Shown piece by piece: positions 9,423 through 21,806 of a DNA stretch of 43,669 nucleotides. The stretch comes from Methanomassiliicoccales archaeon (GTDB lineage Archaea > Thermoplasmatota > Thermoplasmata > Methanomassiliicoccales > JACIVX01): positions 1-43,669 of the forward strand of contig JARYLV010000015.1 of assembly GCA_029907465.1 (NCBI GenBank). The letters are read 5' to 3'. Made by a program: the position numbers and the translations under genes. Position 1 is the stretch's first letter. Every line of letters starts with the position of its first letter. Under the pieces are notes generated by a model. It had not been told where the DNA came from and ran no database searches. It was given only the letters and a program-made list of their open reading frames with translations.

Positions 9423-10136
9423 TTGAGTTCAAATGAAAAGATAAAGACCTTTGTTGACGGTTTTGACAAAATACTGGAAGGGGGAATACCCACTGGTCAC
9501 ATTGTTCTCATTGCTGGCACTCCTGGAACTATGAAGTCCTCACTCACGTATTACATTCTTTACCATCATGCACTCGAGAACGGGAAAACTGGTGTTTACG
9601 TGACCTTGGAGCAATCACGAGAAAGCCTCCTTCGACAAATGGAAAAAATGGGAATGCCGACAGAACCCGTCAAGGACAAGTTGCACGTTCTCGACCTCAG
9701 TTTAATAAGAAAGAAATTGAGGCAGATCTCTGGTGCTGGCTCATGGCTCCAAGTTTTCAAAGCCTACCTCCAGAATTTGAATGAAAATCTGAGATATGAA
9801 CTGCTGGCAATCGATTCGCTCGATGTACTTGAAACGATGTCAGAAATATCAAACAGGAGGACAGAGCTTTTCTATTTGTTCCAATGGATGAAGGAACTCA
9901 AATCTACCGTTTTCCTGATTTCTGAGGCTTCGCCTGAAAAGATCCTCGAGGGTACTTATGACGAAGGATATCTCTCTGATGGGGTTATCACCCTGAAAAT
10001 GCAAGTTGTTAGGGATGTTGAGACTCAAAGGCGCATCAGATGTGTCAAGATGAGAGAGACAAACCACGACCCTTCATACTATACCTTGTTGTTCAGCGGT
10101 AATAAGTTCCAGGTAACAAAAGTCATAAGCGAATGA
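9423..10136 (+). CDS. KaiC-like RecA-superfamily ATPase, copy 1
   Basis: A 237-residue single-domain KaiC/RAD55-like P-loop ATPase. Walker A is GTPGTMKSS (32-40) and Walker B is LLAIDSLD with D131. The position of the catalytic Glu pair of KaiC reads TLEQS (E63, Q64), so the second Glu is Gln. Archaeal KaiC relatives are mostly regulatory ATPases linked to signalling or motility, and this is not a clock protein by sequence alone. The start is TTG 9423, supported by GGAGGGG five bases upstream and by alignment with copy 3. The stop overlaps the next start by four bases (ATGA). It is first of three related genes. A precise role cannot be assigned. Confidence 0.85.
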   Translation: MSSNEKIKTFVDGFDKILEGGIPTGHIVLIAGTPGTMKSSLTYYILYHHALENGKTGVYVTLEQSRESLLRQMEKMGMPTEPVKDKLHVLDLSLIRKKLRQISGAGSWLQVFKAYLQNLNENLRYELLAIDSLDVLETMSEISNRRTELFYLFQWMKELKSTVFLISEASPEKILEGTYDEGYLSDGVITLKMQVVRDVETQRRIRCVKMRETNHDPSYYTLLFSGNKFQVTKVISE

Positions 10137-11671
10137 GGCCTGGTGAATCGATGAAAAAGCGCTATGAATGCCCGAGATGCGGCGCTGGCATTAGGCCTGA
10201 TGATATCCAATGTGATCGATGCGGCGAGATTTTGAAGCCAATCGAGCCGCAGGCCGATACGATGCCCGTTTCGGTTACTGTCGAGAAAGTCATCAGCGAG
10301 GAGGAAATACCTATCGTATTCGGACAGTCGGAGTACTTGTCACTCTCAAGACAGAAGCAACTACTGGCCCAAAAGGAAAAAGAGATCGCAAAAAGAGAAA
10401 AAGAGTTAATGGAAAGAGAAAATCGACTGATGGAGGCGATCGAATCCCTCGAGAGGGATAATCGTGCACTTGAAGAGGCGATGAAGCGGTGCACGGAATT
10501 TGAGGCGGAACTCCGCGCCCGTGAGAAGATACTTAGGGACAGGGAAAAGGAACTGGACGCACTTGCAGAGAAACTTGAAAGGAGCATGAGGGAACTCGAA
10601 ATCTCGACGGATTCAGGCAGGAAGATGAGAGTCAGTACAGAGGAATTTGAGAAGCTCCTCGCGTTGAGGGAAGATTATCAAAAAGCGATAGAAGAAGGAC
10701 TATCAAGAATGAGAAAACAGGTGGAGGAGGAGCTGCGAGAGAGATTTGAGAAGCTTTCGCAACTTGAACAGCAGCTCAGAGCGGCAGAAGCTTCCTTTGA
10801 GAGAAAGATCACATCGGCGACAGAAATTGCTGAGAGAGGAGTTGCCGAAGAGCCAGAAGAGTCCGTTGCTAGCATTGTAGATATCAGTAAGATCGTCGAC
10901 GAGCTCAAAAAGGAAATCGACGTCCAGATCGGGGCGGGATTCGCAGAGAAGCCTAAGGATGTGAAAATCCGTACACACATCGAAAGGCTCGATGTGGCTC
11001 TCGATGGTGGAATACCGAAGGGAAGCGTTGTGCTTGTCAACGGCATCGCGGGCACGATGAAATCGACACTCACCTATGCGATCCTCCACAACTGCGCTGT
11101 CCTGGATAATATTAACAGCATGTATTTTTCGCTTGAACAGAGCCGAGAATCACTTATCCGGCAGATGGAACGACTGGGAATGCCGAGAGAGAAATCTAGG
11201 GACAGGTTGATGGTTGTAGATATGATCGATTTACGCAAACGGATGGCAAAGGAAAAGGGGGACTGGCGTAGTATCCTCATGAGATACGTGAGCAACGTCA
11301 AGAAAGAATGGGACTTCCAGCTGTTCGTGCTCGATTCACTAGACTCTTTCAAGTCGCTAGCTGATTACGAACTCACGAGACAGGATCTGAAGGATATTTT
11401 CGACTGGTTCAAATCACTAGACATAACTGTCTTCTTGATTTCTGAAAAACCCATCGCTTCAATGCTTGAAAACTCCGAGAGCGAAGTTTATCTGGCTGAT
11501 GGAGTGATCGAACTCCACATGAAGGAACTGGATCATGGACGAATGCAGCGATGGCTGAGGGTGATGAAGATGAGGGGTTCGAACATCGATCCGCGCTACT
11601 TTTCGTTCTCGCATGACGGGACTCGGTTCAGCATCTCAGTGCCGATCGTGAACAGAGATGGTCCCTCCTGA
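10133..11671 (+). CDS. Zinc ribbon-coiled coil-KaiC-like ATPase, copy 2
   Basis: A 512-residue composite protein. A zinc ribbon at the N-terminus has C13, C16, C27 and C30 (CPRC, CDRC). A highly charged Glu/Lys/Arg-rich coiled coil runs about 68-235. A KaiC-like ATPase domain covers about 278-505, with Walker A GIAGTMKST (304-312), SLEQS (E335, Q336) and Walker B FVLDSLDS near 398-405. The ribbon and coil probably mediate partner or nucleic-acid binding and oligomerisation, placing the ATPase in a larger assembly; this is inference. It overlaps copy 1 by four bases, so the two are translationally coupled. ATG 10151 (Met7), four bases after GGTGA, is an alternative start. I know no characterised protein with this exact order of parts. 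Confidence 0.85.
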   Translation: MRPGESMKKRYECPRCGAGIRPDDIQCDRCGEILKPIEPQADTMPVSVTVEKVISEEEIPIVFGQSEYLSLSRQKQLLAQKEKEIAKREKELMERENRLMEAIESLERDNRALEEAMKRCTEFEAELRAREKILRDREKELDALAEKLERSMRELEISTDSGRKMRVSTEEFEKLLALREDYQKAIEEGLSRMRKQVEEELRERFEKLSQLEQQLRAAEASFERKITSATEIAERGVAEEPEESVASIVDISKIVDELKKEIDVQIGAGFAEKPKDVKIRTHIERLDVALDGGIPKGSVVLVNGIAGTMKSTLTYAILHNCAVLDNINSMYFSLEQSRESLIRQMERLGMPREKSRDRLMVVDMIDLRKRMAKEKGDWRSILMRYVSNVKKEWDFQLFVLDSLDSFKSLADYELTRQDLKDIFDWFKSLDITVFLISEKPIASMLENSESEVYLADGVIELHMKELDHGRMQRWLRVMKMRGSNIDPRYFSFSHDGTRFSISVPIVNRDGPS

Positions 11672-11705
11672 GAATCCACAATACGAAGAGGACAGCGACG
11701 AAAGA

Positions 11706-11713
11706 TTAAATAT
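11706..11713 (+). promoter_or_regulatory. TATA-like box before KaiC-like copy 3
   Basis: TTAAATAT is centred about 42 bases before ATG 11752. The predicted transcription start near 11735 leaves a 17-base leader containing GGATGG. Copy 3 may therefore be transcribed on its own as well as by read-through. Confidence 0.4.
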
Positions 11714-11751
11714 TCCAGATGCCCTAATTGGTATCCACGGGATGGAAAAGC

Positions 11752-12468
11752 ATGGTGCACATTGAAAGAGTCAGGACTTTCATCCATAATTTTGATGAGA
11801 ATCTCCAAGGGGGTATTCCAAAAGGGCAAGTCGTCTTGATCACGGGAACGCCTGGGACGATGAAGTCCTCCCTTGCATATAGTATCCTCTACCATAACGC
11901 GCTCCAAAACGGGATCAAGAGCGTCTACATGACACTCGAGCAATCGAAAGACAACCTGATGCAACAGATGACGAGTATGGGCATGGATGATGAAAGAGCA
12001 AAGGAGTTTATTCATATTCTGGACCTCGGGCTTATCAGAAAAAGTCTAACCCAGTTGAGCGCAAAAGGGACATGGTTGCAGGTCTTTAAAATGTATGCGG
12101 ACAGTCTCAAACGTAGCATCGGTTATGAGCTACTGGTGGTGGACTCCCTCGATGTATTGGAAATGGCTGCCCAGATAGGCGAAAACAGGCGTACCGAGCT
12201 CTTCTATCTCTTCGAATGGCTGAGGAATCTCGGCGTCACCTCATTCCTTATATCTGAGACGTCTCCAGAAAAAATGCTTGAAAACAAATATGACGAAGGG
12301 TACTTAGCAGATGGTGTTATCAGCTTGAAACTGCAGGAAATTGGCGAGACGGACATTCAGCGGAGGATTAGGGCGGTCAAGATCAGAAGTACGAACCACA
12401 AGACCGGGTACTTCTCCTTGCTCTTCAGCGATGGTGTGTTCAGAGCGACTCAGGTTATAACTGAATGA
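11752..12468 (+). CDS. KaiC-like RecA-superfamily ATPase, copy 3
   Basis: A 238-residue close relative of copy 1. Walker A GTPGTMKSS is at the same positions (32-40) and TLEQS again has Glu63-Gln64. Walker B is LLVVDSLD, and the C-terminal half carries a matching YDEGYLADGVI segment. The reading frame extends to TTG 11728, but ATG 11752 aligns exactly with the start of copy 1 and has GGATGG six bases upstream, so I chose it. It is separated from copy 2 by 80 bases with a TATA-like box. Copies 1 and 3 are more alike than either is to the ATPase domain of copy 2, which suggests duplication with copy 2 inserted or extended. Function is unknown beyond ATP-dependent regulation. Confidence 0.85.
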   Translation: MVHIERVRTFIHNFDENLQGGIPKGQVVLITGTPGTMKSSLAYSILYHNALQNGIKSVYMTLEQSKDNLMQQMTSMGMDDERAKEFIHILDLGLIRKSLTQLSAKGTWLQVFKMYADSLKRSIGYELLVVDSLDVLEMAAQIGENRRTELFYLFEWLRNLGVTSFLISETSPEKMLENKYDEGYLADGVISLKLQEIGETDIQRRIRAVKIRSTNHKTGYFSLLFSDGVFRATQVITE

Positions 12469-12526: not shown

Positions 12527-12619
12527 GGGCTCATGGTCTAGTGGTTATGACGTCGCCCTCACATGTCATCTGGTGACTGAGAGCGGCGAAGTTCCCCGGT
12601 TCGAATCCGGGTGAGCCCA
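12527..12619 (+). tRNA. tRNA-Val (anticodon CAC) with a 20-base BHB intron
   Basis: The acceptor stem GGGCTCA/TGAGCCC pairs fully with discriminator A12619. The T arm is CCCGG TTCGAAT CCGGG. The anticodon stem TCGCC (12553-12557) pairs with GGCGA (12585-12589). The loop reads CTCACA before the intron and C after it, giving anticodon CAC at 12560-12562. The intron at 12564-12583 interrupts positions 37/38. It folds as a canonical archaeal bulge-helix-bulge: anticodon stem, 3-base bulge AGC, 4-bp CTCA/TGAG helix, 3-base bulge CAT, 4-bp GTCA/TGAC helix and a 5-base loop. Cleavage by the tRNA splicing endonuclease is expected at CA^T and AG^C. The 3' CCA is not encoded. A pyrimidine-rich tract follows. 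Confidence 0.95.
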
Positions 12620-12781
12620 CCTTCTTTCCTCCTCCTTTAGGTAAACATGGTTTCGCATTTCGACTAGGTATTCCATCAAAACAAGGCATCCCAAACAGTC
12701 CTGCAAATTCCAGCGGTAAATAAGCAAGCCTCACGTGGAGTCAATCCCATTGAGGTTGTAAAAATTGTTCAAATGTTGAGA

Positions 12782-16120: not shown

Positions 16121-17548
16121 ATGAGTAAGAAATTTAGACTTCGAGGTGTCTATCCAGCACTCGTAACCCCTTTTGACAAGAAAGAAGAGGTCAACGAGGA
16201 AGCTTTCCGCACTCTCATTAGGAGTGTTTTCGATCATGTGGACGGTTTTGTCCCATGTGGTACGACTGGTGAATTTGAATATATGAAATATGAAGAGAGA
16301 AAGAAGATATTTGACATTTGCATCGATGAAGCCAATGGCAAAAAGCCAGTTATTGCTGGGACAGGCGACCCGTGCACACGGCGTGTCATCGAACTATCAA
16401 AATATGCTCAGGACGCCGGCGCCGATGCATGCCTCGTCGTCACACCATACTTCCTTCACCCTTCAGACAAAGGCATCTACGAGCACTTCTATCAGATATC
16501 GCGAGCGGTCGACATACCGATCATCATGTACAACATTCCCCAGACAGTTGGCGGCTATCTCCCGAGAAGGGTCATTGAAGATCTCGCAGAACTTGACAAC
16601 ATTGTCGGGTTGAAGGATTCGTCTGGGAACTTGACATATACGATGGAAGTTTTGGAAAAAGTCGAAGGGAAAATCGACGTCGTGGTAGGACACGACGAAG
16701 TTGTACTTCCAGCACTTGCCGGTGGATGCAGTGGGATGATCCTAGCGAGTGCTCAAATATACCCTGATATTTGGCAAAAGGTCTATAGGGCGGTCAAAGA
16801 GGGAGATCTCGAGGAGGCGAGAAGACAGCAGTTGAAGGTTCAGAAGCTTTCGAGAATCTTCTGCAGATACGGCGGGCCTGTGCCAATAAAAATCGCTCTC
16901 AAGTATATGGGAATCGACATGGGAAAAACAAGGAGTCCGCTGAAAGAAGGTGGTGTCATACTCCACGAGGACCGGGAAGAGATTAGGCTCGAGCTCGAGA
17001 AAATTGGTAAGGTCCCAGTCTCAGAGCCGCCTGTCGAAGCCCCCGAGCTCCCGCTCGAGAAGAGGTTCGAGGATATCGGAATTTCCCCTGCTGACGTGAG
17101 CAATGACGGGATTTATATCGGTAGTGCCAGCGCAGGTACGGGGATCAATAAGGTCAGAGTGGACCTTGTTACCGGTCAGAAGGACGGTGCAGTCGGTCTG
17201 GCATTTGCATCCCAACTGGTCTATCTCAGAAGGGGGTATGAAGCGCTACCCGCGATTCTTGAGCCGAATCTGTCTGCAAAACCAAGCTGCCTCATAGTGC
17301 CTACCGTCGAACTTAAGAATCTGCGTCAGGCAAACATCATGTATGGTCCAGCCCAGGCGGGGATCGCGAAAGCGATCGCAGACAAAGTGGAGATGAACGT
17401 GATCCCGAAAGATATCATCGACACCCATGTAATGCTCGTTAAGGCTTTCGTTCATCCAAATGCACTCGAACGCGGGATCCTTTACAAGAATTTCTACGAT
17501 GCGACAATGCGTGCGATTGATATGGCGTTCGGAAGGAAGGTGATGTAA
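16121..17548 (+). CDS. DapA-family aldolase fused to a formaldehyde-activating-enzyme (Fae) domain, protein A
   Basis: 475 residues with two domains. Residues 1-295 are a class I DapA/NAL-family aldolase: GTTGE (47-51), Y110, catalytic Tyr Y137 in YNIP and Schiff-base Lys K165 in GLKDSSG. The Arg that follows YNVPS in true dihydrodipicolinate synthase is absent (QTVGG), so DHDPS activity is unlikely. Residues about 330-475 match Fae (methylene-H4MPT-forming formaldehyde-activating enzyme). Matches include AFAS, EPNLSAKPSCL (381-391), YGPAQAGIA (408-416), VIPKDIID and AFVHPNA. The Fae catalytic His is replaced by R346 (NKVRVDLV). The stop TAA directly abuts the next ATG. Inference: a pyruvate-type aldol reaction handling formaldehyde is coupled to a C1-carrier site. 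The exact substrate is unknown. Confidence 0.88.
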   Translation: MSKKFRLRGVYPALVTPFDKKEEVNEEAFRTLIRSVFDHVDGFVPCGTTGEFEYMKYEERKKIFDICIDEANGKKPVIAGTGDPCTRRVIELSKYAQDAGADACLVVTPYFLHPSDKGIYEHFYQISRAVDIPIIMYNIPQTVGGYLPRRVIEDLAELDNIVGLKDSSGNLTYTMEVLEKVEGKIDVVVGHDEVVLPALAGGCSGMILASAQIYPDIWQKVYRAVKEGDLEEARRQQLKVQKLSRIFCRYGGPVPIKIALKYMGIDMGKTRSPLKEGGVILHEDREEIRLELEKIGKVPVSEPPVEAPELPLEKRFEDIGISPADVSNDGIYIGSASAGTGINKVRVDLVTGQKDGAVGLAFASQLVYLRRGYEALPAILEPNLSAKPSCLIVPTVELKNLRQANIMYGPAQAGIAKAIADKVEMNVIPKDIIDTHVMLVKAFVHPNALERGILYKNFYDATMRAIDMAFGRKVM

Positions 17549-19015
17549 ATGCCTAGGGCCGAATGGTTAAAGGGAATCTATCCAGCGATCGTAACACCTT
17601 TTAAGAAGGATGAAACGATCGACGAGGAGGCGTTGAGGAATCTTGTTGACTTTCTCATCAAAGATGTCAACGGTTTCGTCGTTGCTGGGACGACAGGGGA
17701 ATTCGTTTATCTGACAGATGAAGAAAGATTAAAGACGCTTGAGATTGTCATCGATCAGGTCAACAAGAAAGTTCCTGTGATTGCGGGTACTGGTGCGAGT
17801 AGCACAAAGGCAACTGTGGAGTTGACACAGAGAGCCAAGGATATGGGGGCGGATGCAGCCCTCGTCGTCACTCCTTATTATTTCAACCCAACATGGAAAG
17901 AAATTTATGAGCATTTTGATGCGGTCAACGAGGTAGGTCTTCCCATCATCCTGTACAACATTCCGCAATGTGCTGGCATGCACCAGCAGTGGTGGACAAC
18001 AGAAGGGCTTGCGTATCTGGATCATGTCATCGGCGTCAAGGACTCGAGTGGCGATTTGCCGTACATGACCGCGCTCTTCGAGAAGATACGAGGAAAAATC
18101 AATATTCTCTGCGGTTACGACGAGGTGGGGACTGCCGCACTGCTCAGCGGTGCGGATGGGTTGATCCTCGCGAGTGCGAACCTCATCCCCGATATTTGGC
18201 AGAAAATCTATCAGCACGTCCAAAAAGGTGAAATCGAGGAGGCGAGACAGCTCCAGCAAAAAATCCAGAAGCTCGTCAGGATCATCGCGAGAACCAGTGG
18301 AAACCAGGCAGTTAAGGAAGGACTTTGGATGATGGGCATTGATGTTGGGTACTCTCGGAGACCGACGATGCCCGGAGACGCATTTAGGCACGAAGATAGG
18401 GAAGAGATGAGAATCGAACTCGAGATCCTGGGTAAGATCAAGCCGAGAGAGACTACCTATATTCTCGGAAACCGAAAGGTGGTCACTAGAGTTCCCGCGA
18501 CACCTCAAACGCCAACAGTCGTTGAGAATTTCTCGCTCAAGGTCGGAGAAGGTTACGCAGGACCGCCGTACCACGAGATCGCACATACGGACCTATTGAT
18601 CGGCATAAAAGGTGGCCCGGTCGATATCGCGATAGAGAGAGCTCTCCAGGCTGACGCAGGCCAGGGAAAAATGAGGATCGTTCACGATCTGCCGAGGACC
18701 CTCCTCGTCCCGACAGTCACGCCGAGGACGAAGAAACAGGAAGAACTCTTATATGTTCACGCCGTCGCTGGACTTAAATGGGCTATTGAGGCAAGCATCC
18801 AGGACGGTTTCCTTCCGAAAGAAATCCTCAACGACATCGTCCTCCTCGCGAACGTTTTTGTTCACCCCGCAGCCGCTAACAGGCACAGGGTGAAGGTCAA
18901 CAACTACAAGGCTGCGAGATATGCGATCAGGAAGGCAATCGAGGGGAGGCCAACGCTCGATGAGATCTTCTATCAGAAAGAATCGGTGAGGCACCCGTTC
19001 AAGTACACGCCGTGA
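17549..19015 (+). CDS. DapA-family aldolase fused to an Fae domain, protein B
   Basis: A 488-residue paralogue of protein A, starting on the base after its stop, with GGAAGGTGA as ribosome site inside the end of gene A. The aldolase domain keeps GTTGE (47-51), Y110, Y136 (YNIP) and Schiff-base K164 (GVKDSSG), and also lacks the DHDPS Arg. The Fae domain (about 328-488) keeps the catalytic-type His as H346 in EIAHTDLLIG. It also keeps VFVHPAA and the C-terminal HPF element seen in Fae. However, the Pro-Asn-Leu-Pro-x-Lys-Pro and Gly-Pro-Ala-Gln segments are replaced (VHDLPRTLLVP, VHAVAGLKWA). Residue retention is therefore complementary to protein A, which suggests the two chains assemble and share composite Fae sites. 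A terminator-like hairpin follows. Confidence 0.87.
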   Translation: MPRAEWLKGIYPAIVTPFKKDETIDEEALRNLVDFLIKDVNGFVVAGTTGEFVYLTDEERLKTLEIVIDQVNKKVPVIAGTGASSTKATVELTQRAKDMGADAALVVTPYYFNPTWKEIYEHFDAVNEVGLPIILYNIPQCAGMHQQWWTTEGLAYLDHVIGVKDSSGDLPYMTALFEKIRGKINILCGYDEVGTAALLSGADGLILASANLIPDIWQKIYQHVQKGEIEEARQLQQKIQKLVRIIARTSGNQAVKEGLWMMGIDVGYSRRPTMPGDAFRHEDREEMRIELEILGKIKPRETTYILGNRKVVTRVPATPQTPTVVENFSLKVGEGYAGPPYHEIAHTDLLIGIKGGPVDIAIERALQADAGQGKMRIVHDLPRTLLVPTVTPRTKKQEELLYVHAVAGLKWAIEASIQDGFLPKEILNDIVLLANVFVHPAAANRHRVKVNNYKAARYAIRKAIEGRPTLDEIFYQKESVRHPFKYTP

Positions 19016-19160: not shown

Positions 19161-19955
19161 TCAGACATGGCTCTTTATTGCTGGTTCGACTAGATACTTG
19201 CAATGGCTATAACCACTTGCAAGGCACTCCGCATCGACCATGATGTTCAAACACATGCCCATGCGGCTCTCAAGGATTGCCCCAATAATTCCCTCGTTAA
19301 GGATGCAGAAACTTCTTCCCGTCTCGGGCATCCGATGACAATTGTATTCATCCCTTATTATCAGGACAAGAGGCCTAACAGAGTAAACGCAGACCTCACC
19401 GAGCTCGTGTAGTTGGTAAAACTCTTGAATTTCCTTGATAAGTTCCTCGAGGGAGTTCGATTTCATCCGTTTCGAAACCTCTGTTCCGATCATCTTCCCG
19501 ATGTCCTTGAGCATCGGCTCCATTCTGAGTCCTATCGACTCCATGCCGAGGATAATCGATCTGATCACCCCCTTAAGAAAAGTACTTGGCATGCCGATGG
19601 AACCCGCGATCGTTTTTCCGATCGCATCTTTCAAATCTTCCCTTGGGCTAGTCGAGGAGCCGATGGGCTTCGATATCAAATGATAAATTTTCCTTCTGCT
19701 GTCGGTCGGATCCTCCCTACACGCGATTAGCTTTTCCCTGACCAGTTCTTCTAGATGTCCCGAAATTGTTGACTGGGCCTTACCTGTGATGCTCGCGATG
19801 TCGCTGAGGCTCAGTTCCCTAGCTTGTAGTTCGCTCAGAATCCTTTGACGCAGAGGGTTTGAAATTTGTCTCAGACCATTTGAAGTCAAATAGACCTGGA
19901 AGAAACGATCCGTTCTTACATCACCGGTGTTCGGGGCTACAAATGAGTCTGACAT
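19161..19955 (-). CDS. HTH-V4R transcription regulator (MsvR-like architecture)
   Basis: 264 residues. A winged-helix, ArsR-like HTH covers about 20-95 (LRQRILSEL; DIASITGKAQSTISGHLEEL), followed by a helical linker. A C-terminal V4R (4-vinyl-reductase) domain follows from about 185, with the family's spaced Gly/Cys pattern: CHRM, SFC, IIGAI, then AEC and SHCKY. The same HTH+V4R order occurs in MsvR, a methanogen redox regulator whose V4R cysteines sense oxidation; the several cysteines here would allow a similar role. The open frame extends to TTG 19967, but ATG 19955 is more natural and has a TATA-like CTTATACT about 35 bases upstream. It is convergent with the DapA-Fae operon and divergent from mtnA, so either could be its target. 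The ligand is unknown. Confidence 0.8.
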   Translation of the reverse strand: MSDSFVAPNTGDVRTDRFFQVYLTSNGLRQISNPLRQRILSELQARELSLSDIASITGKAQSTISGHLEELVREKLIACREDPTDSRRKIYHLISKPIGSSTSPREDLKDAIGKTIAGSIGMPSTFLKGVIRSIILGMESIGLRMEPMLKDIGKMIGTEVSKRMKSNSLEELIKEIQEFYQLHELGEVCVYSVRPLVLIIRDEYNCHRMPETGRSFCILNEGIIGAILESRMGMCLNIMVDAECLASGYSHCKYLVEPAIKSHV

Positions 19956-20154
19956 AGGGGGATTCAAATTTTACACTTCAATAGGAGTATAAGAATCATT
20001 CCCTAGCTGGATGGTTCATCCATATTAAACGATTGATAACCTCGAAGATGCTGGAAATTTGATAATTTAATGTTTTTATGGCCAGACGAGGCATATTTCA
20101 GGTGGAGAATATATCCATCTTGACGAAGCCTATATTTTTTCTATACTGAGGTCA

Positions 20155-21177
20155 ATGTCAGGATGTGAGAACTTGAGGGTTATTGTTGAAGGAAGGGTGG
20201 CTGAGGTAAGAGCGGTATGGTTCGAGGACAATAAGGTAAAGATGATCGACCAGCGGACGTTACCCCACGAATTCAGGATTTTATCATTTTGCAGATGCGA
20301 CGAAGTGGCCGAAGCGATAAGGAACATGACGATTCGTGGGGCCCCTTCAATCGGTGCAGCTGCAGCGTACGGCCTCGCTCTCAGTGCTCTCAATGGTGAT
20401 GATTTAGAGACAGCGGCGAATATGATGAGGCGAACGCGCCCGACCGCAAACGATCTCTTTTACGCGGTTGACTACATGCTCAAGGCTATAACGTCTGGTG
20501 AAGAACCAGTCACGGCTTCAAATGCCTATGCCGATGCGATCGTCGAGAAGTGCAAAAGGATCGGAAAAAATGGGTCTTCGCTCATAAGAGATCATTCTAA
20601 GGTGATGACGCACTGCAACGCAGGAGCACTCGCTTCTGTAGATGTTGGCACAGCCCTCGCACCGTTGCGCATTGCACGCGATGAGGGAAAGGATTTCTTT
20701 GTTTATGTTTCGGAGACAAGGCCTCGCCTCCAGGGCATGAGGCTCACTTCATGGGAGCTGCTGAACGAGGGAATTCCCCATGCTATTATCGCTGATGCCG
20801 CCTCTGGACACTACATGAAAAAAGATGTTGACCTCATCATCGTAGGTGCCGACAGAATCGTGTCGAATGGAGATTTCGCGAACAAGATTGGAACATTTGA
20901 AAAAGCAGTCCTTGCCAAAGAGCTCGGAATACCTTTCTATGTTGCGGCACCCGTGTCAACATTCGACTTCTCTATTGAAAGCGGGGACGAGATACCTATT
21001 GAGAGTAGGAGCGAGGATGAAGTGACGGAAATTGAGGGGAGAAGAATTGCGCCAGAGGGTGCAAGAGCGCTCAACCCTGCATTCGATGTGACGCCAAGCA
21101 GGTATGTAACTGGATTTATCACAGAAGTCGGCATCCTCAGGCCGTCGGAAATCTCCAAAGTGAAACTAAAGGGATGA
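20155..21177 (+). CDS. mtnA: S-methyl-5-thioribose-1-phosphate isomerase
   Basis: A 340-residue member of the MtnA/eIF2B-like family, which isomerises 5-methylthioribose-1-phosphate to the ribulose-1-phosphate form in methionine or 5'-deoxynucleoside salvage. It has RGAPSIG (61-67), THCNAGALA with C154, ETRPRLQG (187-194), GADRI with D232 and GDFANKIGT. These are the sugar-phosphate and catalytic Cys/Asp residues of MtnA rather than the ribose-1,5-bisphosphate isomerase variant. A TATATTTTTT tract ends about 15 bases before the ATG and would give a nearly leaderless mRNA; GAGGT is present but very close. The stop overlaps a class II aldolase start (ATGA), which points to a shared pathway. Confidence 0.92.
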   Translation: MSGCENLRVIVEGRVAEVRAVWFEDNKVKMIDQRTLPHEFRILSFCRCDEVAEAIRNMTIRGAPSIGAAAAYGLALSALNGDDLETAANMMRRTRPTANDLFYAVDYMLKAITSGEEPVTASNAYADAIVEKCKRIGKNGSSLIRDHSKVMTHCNAGALASVDVGTALAPLRIARDEGKDFFVYVSETRPRLQGMRLTSWELLNEGIPHAIIADAASGHYMKKDVDLIIVGADRIVSNGDFANKIGTFEKAVLAKELGIPFYVAAPVSTFDFSIESGDEIPIESRSEDEVTEIEGRRIAPEGARALNPAFDVTPSRYVTGFITEVGILRPSEISKVKLKG

Positions 21178-21806
21178 AAAGAATGACTATAGAAGAACTG
21201 AGAAAAGAAATCGTCAGATACGGAAGATTGCTCTACGAAAGAGATTTGACCGCCGGTCTGGCGGGCAACCTCAGTGCGAGAGTCGATGACGATCGCATAC
21301 TGATCACACCCTCTGGTCGATGCAAGGGTTTTCTGAAAGAGAAGGAGATCCTAGTCGTGAAGATAAGAAGTGGAAAGGTCTCCGGAAAGGGGAAACCGTC
21401 CATCGAGACCCCCATGCACGCCGCGATTTATAAAAAAAGGAAGGACGTTGGGGCGGTGATCCACGCCCATCCCCCCTACTCGACTGTCCTTGCGGTTGCT
21501 GGCGTACCTCTGAAGACCGCATTGACGCCTGAGGGGGCTCTCGTTCTAGGAGAAGTGCCACTCGTACCGTTCAGAGTGCCAGGCACACACGACCTCGGCG
21601 AGTCCGTCGCGACAGCGATCGAAAAAAACAACGCTTGCTTGCTGGAAAAACATGGCGCTTTGTCGGTTGGTTCGGATCTTGAGGAAGCTTTCTTGCGCCT
21701 TGAGACACTCGAATTCCTCGCAAAGGTCCAAGTTCACCTCAAGCATTTCGGCGAAGTCGAAGAGTTGTCAGAGGAAGCGTTGAGAGGAATCAACACGAAA
21801 AGATGA
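21174..21806 (+). CDS. Class II aldolase (FucA-type; probable 5-deoxy/5-methylthioribulose-1-phosphate aldolase)
   Basis: A 210-residue class II aldolase/adducin-family protein. The zinc and catalytic residues of L-fuculose-1-phosphate aldolase are all present: E78 (IETPMH), H97 and H99 (HAHPPYS), H160 (EKHGAL). The N-terminal GLAGNLSAR phosphate-binding segment is also there. It overlaps mtnA by four bases. MtnA plus this aldolase type is the gene pair of the DHAP shunt, in which a 5-deoxy- or 5-methylthio-ribulose-1-phosphate is split to DHAP and an aldehyde. M. jannaschii uses a homologous pair for 5'-deoxyadenosine recycling. That role is inferred from context; plain fuculose-phosphate aldolase is the alternative. 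ATG 21183 is an alternative start. Confidence 0.88.
   Translation: MKRMTIEELRKEIVRYGRLLYERDLTAGLAGNLSARVDDDRILITPSGRCKGFLKEKEILVVKIRSGKVSGKGKPSIETPMHAAIYKKRKDVGAVIHAHPPYSTVLAVAGVPLKTALTPEGALVLGEVPLVPFRVPGTHDLGESVATAIEKNNACLLEKHGALSVGSDLEEAFLRLETLEFLAKVQVHLKHFGEVEELSEEALRGINTKR

Follow-up and report, generated by a model that had tools for sequence, protein, structure and literature searches.

The question raised by this locus was why an archaeal genome should carry two adjacent genes that both join an aldolase to a formaldehyde-activating enzyme (Fae) domain, and what the two products do together. Cells that produce formaldehyde, a toxic compound, hold it in bound form, and the familiar example of an aldolase with its own formaldehyde trap is Fae-Hps. 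The window analysed was a 43,669-nt stretch from an uncultured, methanogenic Methanomassiliicoccales archaeon (contig JARYLV010000015.1), in which a first-pass annotation had claimed a tandem pair of fusions between Fae and a different, DapA-type aldolase.

Both genes were located on the forward strand, subunit A (475 aa) at 16121-17548 and subunit B (488 aa) at 17549-19015. The two ORFs adjoin without a spacer, the TAA of A (17546-17548) being followed directly by the ATG of B at 17549, with GGTGAT immediately 5' of the B start codon. In A, an aldolase domain (PF00701, residues 7-276, 16139-16948, E = 2.6e-70) preceded the Fae-A domain (residues 333-471, 17117-17533, E = 1.4e-37), and in B the aldolase domain (residues 7-277, 17567-18379, E = 3.5e-76) preceded the Fae-B domain (residues 332-484, 18542-19000, E = 3.5e-28). 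All DHDPS and Fae matches were well over the Pfam curated cut-offs, with Fae (PF08714) scores of 129.6 bits for A and 99.1 bits for B against a cut-off of 27, and the HMM search bore out both the joined architecture and the identity of the C-terminal parts. With the NCBIfam model TIGR03126 (one_C_fae, cut-off 118), A passed at 137.9 bits and B was just below at 114.3 bits. The AlphaFold2 model of B, built from 27 sequences, had a mean pLDDT of 88.6 and a pTM of 0.86 with both domains confident. The source genome (1.72 Mb, 96% complete, McrA present) contained no Fae domains other than those of A and B.

No description of a DapA-Fae fusion was found in open-access full-text searches, which did return Fae-Hps fusions, in agreement with the annotation's statement that none was known; the fusion was also not named in the main text of a survey of archaeal fusions (PMC11237513). 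In Fae-Hps (NF009833, PMC5241800), Fae is likewise joined to an enzyme of the aldolase type that forms or consumes formaldehyde, and the analogy drawn with this protein proved a good one, since the same Bathyarchaeota and Asgard genomes that carry DapA-Fae have Fae-Hps as a separate gene. However, Fae is N-terminal in Fae-Hps and C-terminal in DapA-Fae, where the partner is a class I aldolase of the DapA/NAL type. The Hps (OMP decarboxylase-like) domain that follows Fae is absent in A and B, in which the partner is PF00701 and the order is reversed, and the Fae site of the window pair is divided between two proteins. The Fae-Hps proteins of Bathyarchaeota (L121, L124, L127) also showed about 90 extra N-terminal residues of helix-turn-helix-like character (TIAGTAKxLxxHRDTLYxWxKEF).

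In the order Methanomassiliicoccales the pair was present in 7 of 101 genomes, belonging only to families f1 and f4, and a phylum sample (390 genomes) showed it in two further families. A Fae-B domain scan of 84,980 species genomes gave 91 candidates, of which the best 80 loci were taken. Among the matches listed, about 35 were from Chloroflexota and about 35 from Bathyarchaeota, together with Thermoplasmatota, Baldrarchaeum, Hermodarchaeota, one Brocadiia and one labelled Proteobacteria. All listed loci with enough sequence were DapA-Fae fusions and no viral carriers of the fusion were found. The survey for both domains in one chain, which the annotation had proposed, showed the same architecture kept across several phyla, and the DapA-Fae fusion is an old family spread through uncultured archaea and bacteria.

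Two forms of the fusion were distinguished. Form S, a single gene of about 492 aa that resembles A and B equally, was found in Bathyarchaeota and Hermodarchaeota, and the form in which A is followed by B occurred in the remaining carrier lineages. A and B were present together in 40 loci and S was never accompanied by either of them; most of the loci with only A or only B end at a contig edge, and the completely surveyed pair genomes had exactly two DapA-fused Fae domains each. In the aldolase-domain tree, B and S each formed one supported clade, as did A except for a long-branched Baldrarchaeum copy. The Fae-domain tree placed A and B each in one clade at a support of 100, and all fusions apart from Fae-Hps and stand-alone Fae with a support of 100/98. 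The simplest reading of these sequences would be one fusion and one duplication, after which A and B were inherited and transferred together; long outgroup branches leave room for more than one placement of the root among the three forms.

The genes around the pair were also inspected. Downstream of the pair in f1, the family of the source genome, and in f4 come an MsvR-like regulator on the opposite strand and then MtnA and a class II aldolase. In the window the regulator (19161-19967, reverse strand) is divergent from the downstream genes and scored 212 bits against an NCBIfam cut-off of 220, and the MtnA-like isomerase and class II aldolase (20155-21806, forward strand) are a possible ribose/deoxyribose phosphate salvage pair. 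An MtnA-like gene was near the pair in genome G111 as well. In 15 loci from several phyla (L048:5641-6576, L100:5080-6024, L030:4998-5945 and 12 more), the fusion was preceded by a member of an orphan protein family with a length of about 312 aa and 70% mean column identity. The model of this family was a TIM barrel that resembled class II aldolases and methylisocitrate lyase only weakly (TM about 0.45). As a linked pathway gene this family was rejected, as it gave no match in Pfam and NCBIfam searches, no convincing match in a PDB sequence search and only this weak structural likeness, and was not found in the source genome. Overall, the pathway of the pair is not named by its neighbours in f1 and f4 or in other phyla. 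Further upstream in the window, ARAGORN called a forward-strand tRNA, perhaps intron-bearing, at 12527-12621, whose anticodon of two bases (ca) was unreadable, and 10133-12468 (forward strand) encodes two adjoining KaiC-like ATPases, one of which has a zinc ribbon and is much extended at its N-terminus.

Stand-alone Fae of M. extorquens (PDB 1Y5Y/1Y60) matched Fae-A at 3.4e-21 and Fae-B at 1.4e-17, and unlike A and B it is an H4MPT-dependent enzyme with a single subunit type that holds all site features. The Fae domains of 42 A, 47 B and 35 S proteins were aligned to it, with residue numbers counted from Met1. His22, Asp24, Leu53, Lys71, Thr73 and Gln88 were taken as its annotated site residues, and outside the stretch covered by the PDB alignment the reference sequence was likewise partly assumed. 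The catalytic His22 was present in all 47 B and all 35 S and in 4 of the 42 A (L031, L034 and L102 among them), the substitutes in A being Gln, Arg, Gly, Ser, Thr, Ala or Ile, a variety that would be expected of a freed position. Asp24 was retained in 47/47 B and 39/42 A. The Gln of the GPxQ motif (Gln88) showed the opposite distribution to His22, with 42/42 A, 0/47 B and 35/35 S, and the PNL loop was deleted in every B (47/47) and in no A or S (0/42 and 0/35). A C-terminal HPF tail was found in 45/47 B and 35/35 S and in none of the 42 A. In addition, Lys71 was Thr in S, B and most A, and Leu53 and Thr73 were variable, although Thr73 was retained in 44/47 B; the ligand pocket has therefore changed even where the site layout was retained.

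The window pair followed this division. The His of the E-x-A-H-x-D motif is present in B (His346, 18584-18586, forward strand, as are all codons given here) and is Arg in A (17156-17158). Fae-A has the P-N-L-x-x-K-P loop, as LEPNLSAKPS, and the G-P-x-Q motif, as GPAQ with its Gln (Gln412) at 17354-17356, and lacks the HPF tail. Fae-B has the catalytic Asp and the HPF tail, the LEPNL loop is deleted and GPAQ is absent, with Val at the position of the Gln (18764-18766). The Fae domains of A and B have lost complementary halves of the site, which is whole in the single-gene relatives. Both domains named in the annotation were recognisable, but neither one alone has all the Fae active-site features, and two independent bifunctional enzymes are probably the wrong picture. 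Fae is reportedly a homopentamer with the ligand in a cleft between adjacent subunits. Retention of complementary halves in all aligned pairs is what a Fae site shared between A and B would lead one to expect, and such a composite site is the probable arrangement, although the four A proteins with His22 and the altered ligand pocket speak against it. A pentamer is unable to alternate A and B evenly, so an A/B assembly must differ from the known Fae.

The aldolase domains showed the features of the DHDPS/NAL superfamily (PF00701 match, Schiff-base Lys, Tyr and GTTGE), and the catalytic pair was intact as claimed, with K165 (16613-16615) and Y137 (16529-16531) in A and K164 (18038-18040) and Y136 (17954-17956) in B. 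The fold, Schiff-base Lys, Tyr and two Thr are common to A/B and DapA (4-hydroxy-tetrahydrodipicolinate synthase), and Thr44, Thr45, Tyr133 and Lys161 (E. coli DapA numbering) were 100% retained in A, B and S. Unlike DapA, A and B have Fae fused and lack Arg138, a position which was Arg in 0/117 aligned fusions and Val, Thr, Cys or Ala instead (Thr in A at 16544-16546, Cys in B at 17969-17971). In DapA, the carboxylate group of aspartate semialdehyde is held by Arg138. The absence of this residue points to a pyruvate-type aldolase whose acceptor site does not bind a carboxylate and would fit a small aldehyde without charge, and the attached Fae makes formaldehyde the natural candidate; a formaldehyde-linked aldolase is on balance slightly favoured. 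The N-terminal domain of the B model superposed on DHDPS structures at about 1.4-2 Angstrom, and DHDPS, YagE and NAL superpositions were about equally good. The fold and the Lys/Tyr chemistry on pyruvate are shared with the YagE/N-acetylneuraminate lyase/KDG aldolase branch, but A and B were far below the NCBIfam equivalog cut-offs for NAL and KDG aldolase.

The leading candidate reaction is pyruvate + formaldehyde <-> 4-hydroxy-2-oxobutanoate, and another aldehyde could be the substrate. Formation of 4-hydroxy-2-oxobutanoate from pyruvate and formaldehyde is a side activity of the class II aldolases RhmA/YfaU (PMC8879981, PMC7918591). These enzymes carry out the reaction proposed for A/B as a promiscuous activity and have no Fae, whereas A and B are class I with Fae. 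Two metabolic roles were considered and rejected over 25 genomes. A 4-hydroxy-2-oxobutanoate route replacing homoserine dehydrogenase did not fit, as HSDH was found in the source genome and the pattern over the 25 was mixed, and neither did a role as C1 source in place of serine hydroxymethyltransferase (SHMT), which was found in 23/25 and missing only from two Chloroflexota.

The annotation had named tetrahydromethanopterin as the acceptor. The pterin-enzyme survey covered 25 genomes, including 4 S genomes and 18 pair genomes. All four S genomes were Mch-positive and FolD-negative, and tetrahydromethanopterin should be the pterin of the single-gene archaea. Among the pair genomes 17/18 were without Mch and 15/18 had a FolD match over the cut-off; G003 (73% complete) had none, G441 had a weak match only, and Baldrarchaeum carried the pair while being Mch-positive and FolD-negative, so the split can exist where folate is not used and does not coincide with folate use in a simple way. 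Beta-RFAP synthase was over the cut-off only in Baldrarchaeum, Hermodarchaeota and G108, and its absence is weak evidence since the search missed the Mch-positive Bathyarchaeota. Profile searches of the source genome found neither Mch nor beta-RFAP synthase, and FolD was present, which makes tetrahydromethanopterin unlikely here and tetrahydrofolate likelier, contrary to the annotation. Methanomassiliicoccales are described as being without ftr and mch and using the folate branch (PMC10804542). Folate as the acceptor in the source genome is put at slightly less than an even chance, and tetrahydrofolate would most likely also serve in the other FolD-positive, Mch-negative pair genomes.

The Fae domains of the pair may be non-catalytic relics, kept for oligomerisation or for sensing of a pterin or other ligand, with only the aldolase active. 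Each domain is missing features that canonical Fae requires, the residues Leu53, Lys71 and Thr73 are altered, and H4MPT enzymes are missing from most pair genomes, all as relics would have it. However, the losses were not random, with His22 and Asp24 in 47/47 B and the loop and GPxQ in 42/42 A, and such retention across distant phyla is unexpected without catalytic constraint, which leaves this explanation rather unlikely.

The identity of the aldehyde allows two other explanations. The aldolase may act on a larger aldehyde (e.g., glycolaldehyde or a 2-keto-3-deoxy sugar acid, like KDG aldolase or NAL) while Fae takes formaldehyde from another source or as a stray by-product. DapA-fold enzymes are chemically diverse, and the about equal superpositions on DHDPS, YagE and NAL agree with this, as do the MtnA and class II aldolase genes that adjoin the pair in f1 and f4 and could free glycolaldehyde or acetaldehyde from ribose phosphates. 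Yet that neighbourhood is not general, and the fused Fae, whose attachment was kept across several phyla, favours formaldehyde; the larger aldehyde is considered unlikely, somewhat more so than relic Fae domains. A and/or B could also be the DHDPS of lysine synthesis with an accessory domain, given that both were over the NCBIfam DapA equivalog cut-off and that some S and pair genomes had no other PF00701 protein. Against this, Arg138 is missing from every aligned fusion, and elsewhere in the source genome (G000:C3) a separate, ordinary DapA with Arg138 adjoins a DapB-like ORF, so that lysine synthesis is already served. The lysine role was rejected as very improbable.

The preferred explanation is a formaldehyde-passing heteromer. 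A and B would be its obligate subunits, descended from one DapA-Fae fusion that was duplicated, and their packing would form the composite Fae site, to which B gives the catalytic His/Asp and the tail and A gives the loop and GPxQ. The aldolase domains would produce or use formaldehyde, the partner being pyruvate or a closely related compound, and the Fae site would load the formaldehyde onto a tetrahydropterin, or unload it, in the methylene form, like Fae in Fae-Hps. A composite site and a formaldehyde-linked aldolase holding jointly is judged an even chance. The fuller proposal, in which a Fae-type site for formaldehyde transfer was divided between two paralogous aldolase fusions and adapted to tetrahydrofolate, is tentative and has clearly less than an even chance.

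DapA-Fae is a second, unrelated aldolase to have acquired Fae, and it occurs in Bathyarchaeota, Anaerolineae, Thermoplasmatota and Asgard. The fae genes of Bathyarchaeia that were interpreted as methylotrophy markers (PMC11631310) may in part be this fusion. The A+B form is a clear example from nature of duplicates that lost complementary parts of a single active site, and the majority of its carriers are folate rather than methanopterin users. To our knowledge, Fae-type formaldehyde transfer has so far been linked to tetrahydromethanopterin. If the split site is indeed re-tooled for folate, the pair would be an enzyme that shuttles formaldehyde between a 2-oxo acid and methylene-tetrahydrofolate with none released, and it would give folate-using archaea and bacteria a C1 entry or exit route distinct from serine hydroxymethyltransferase.
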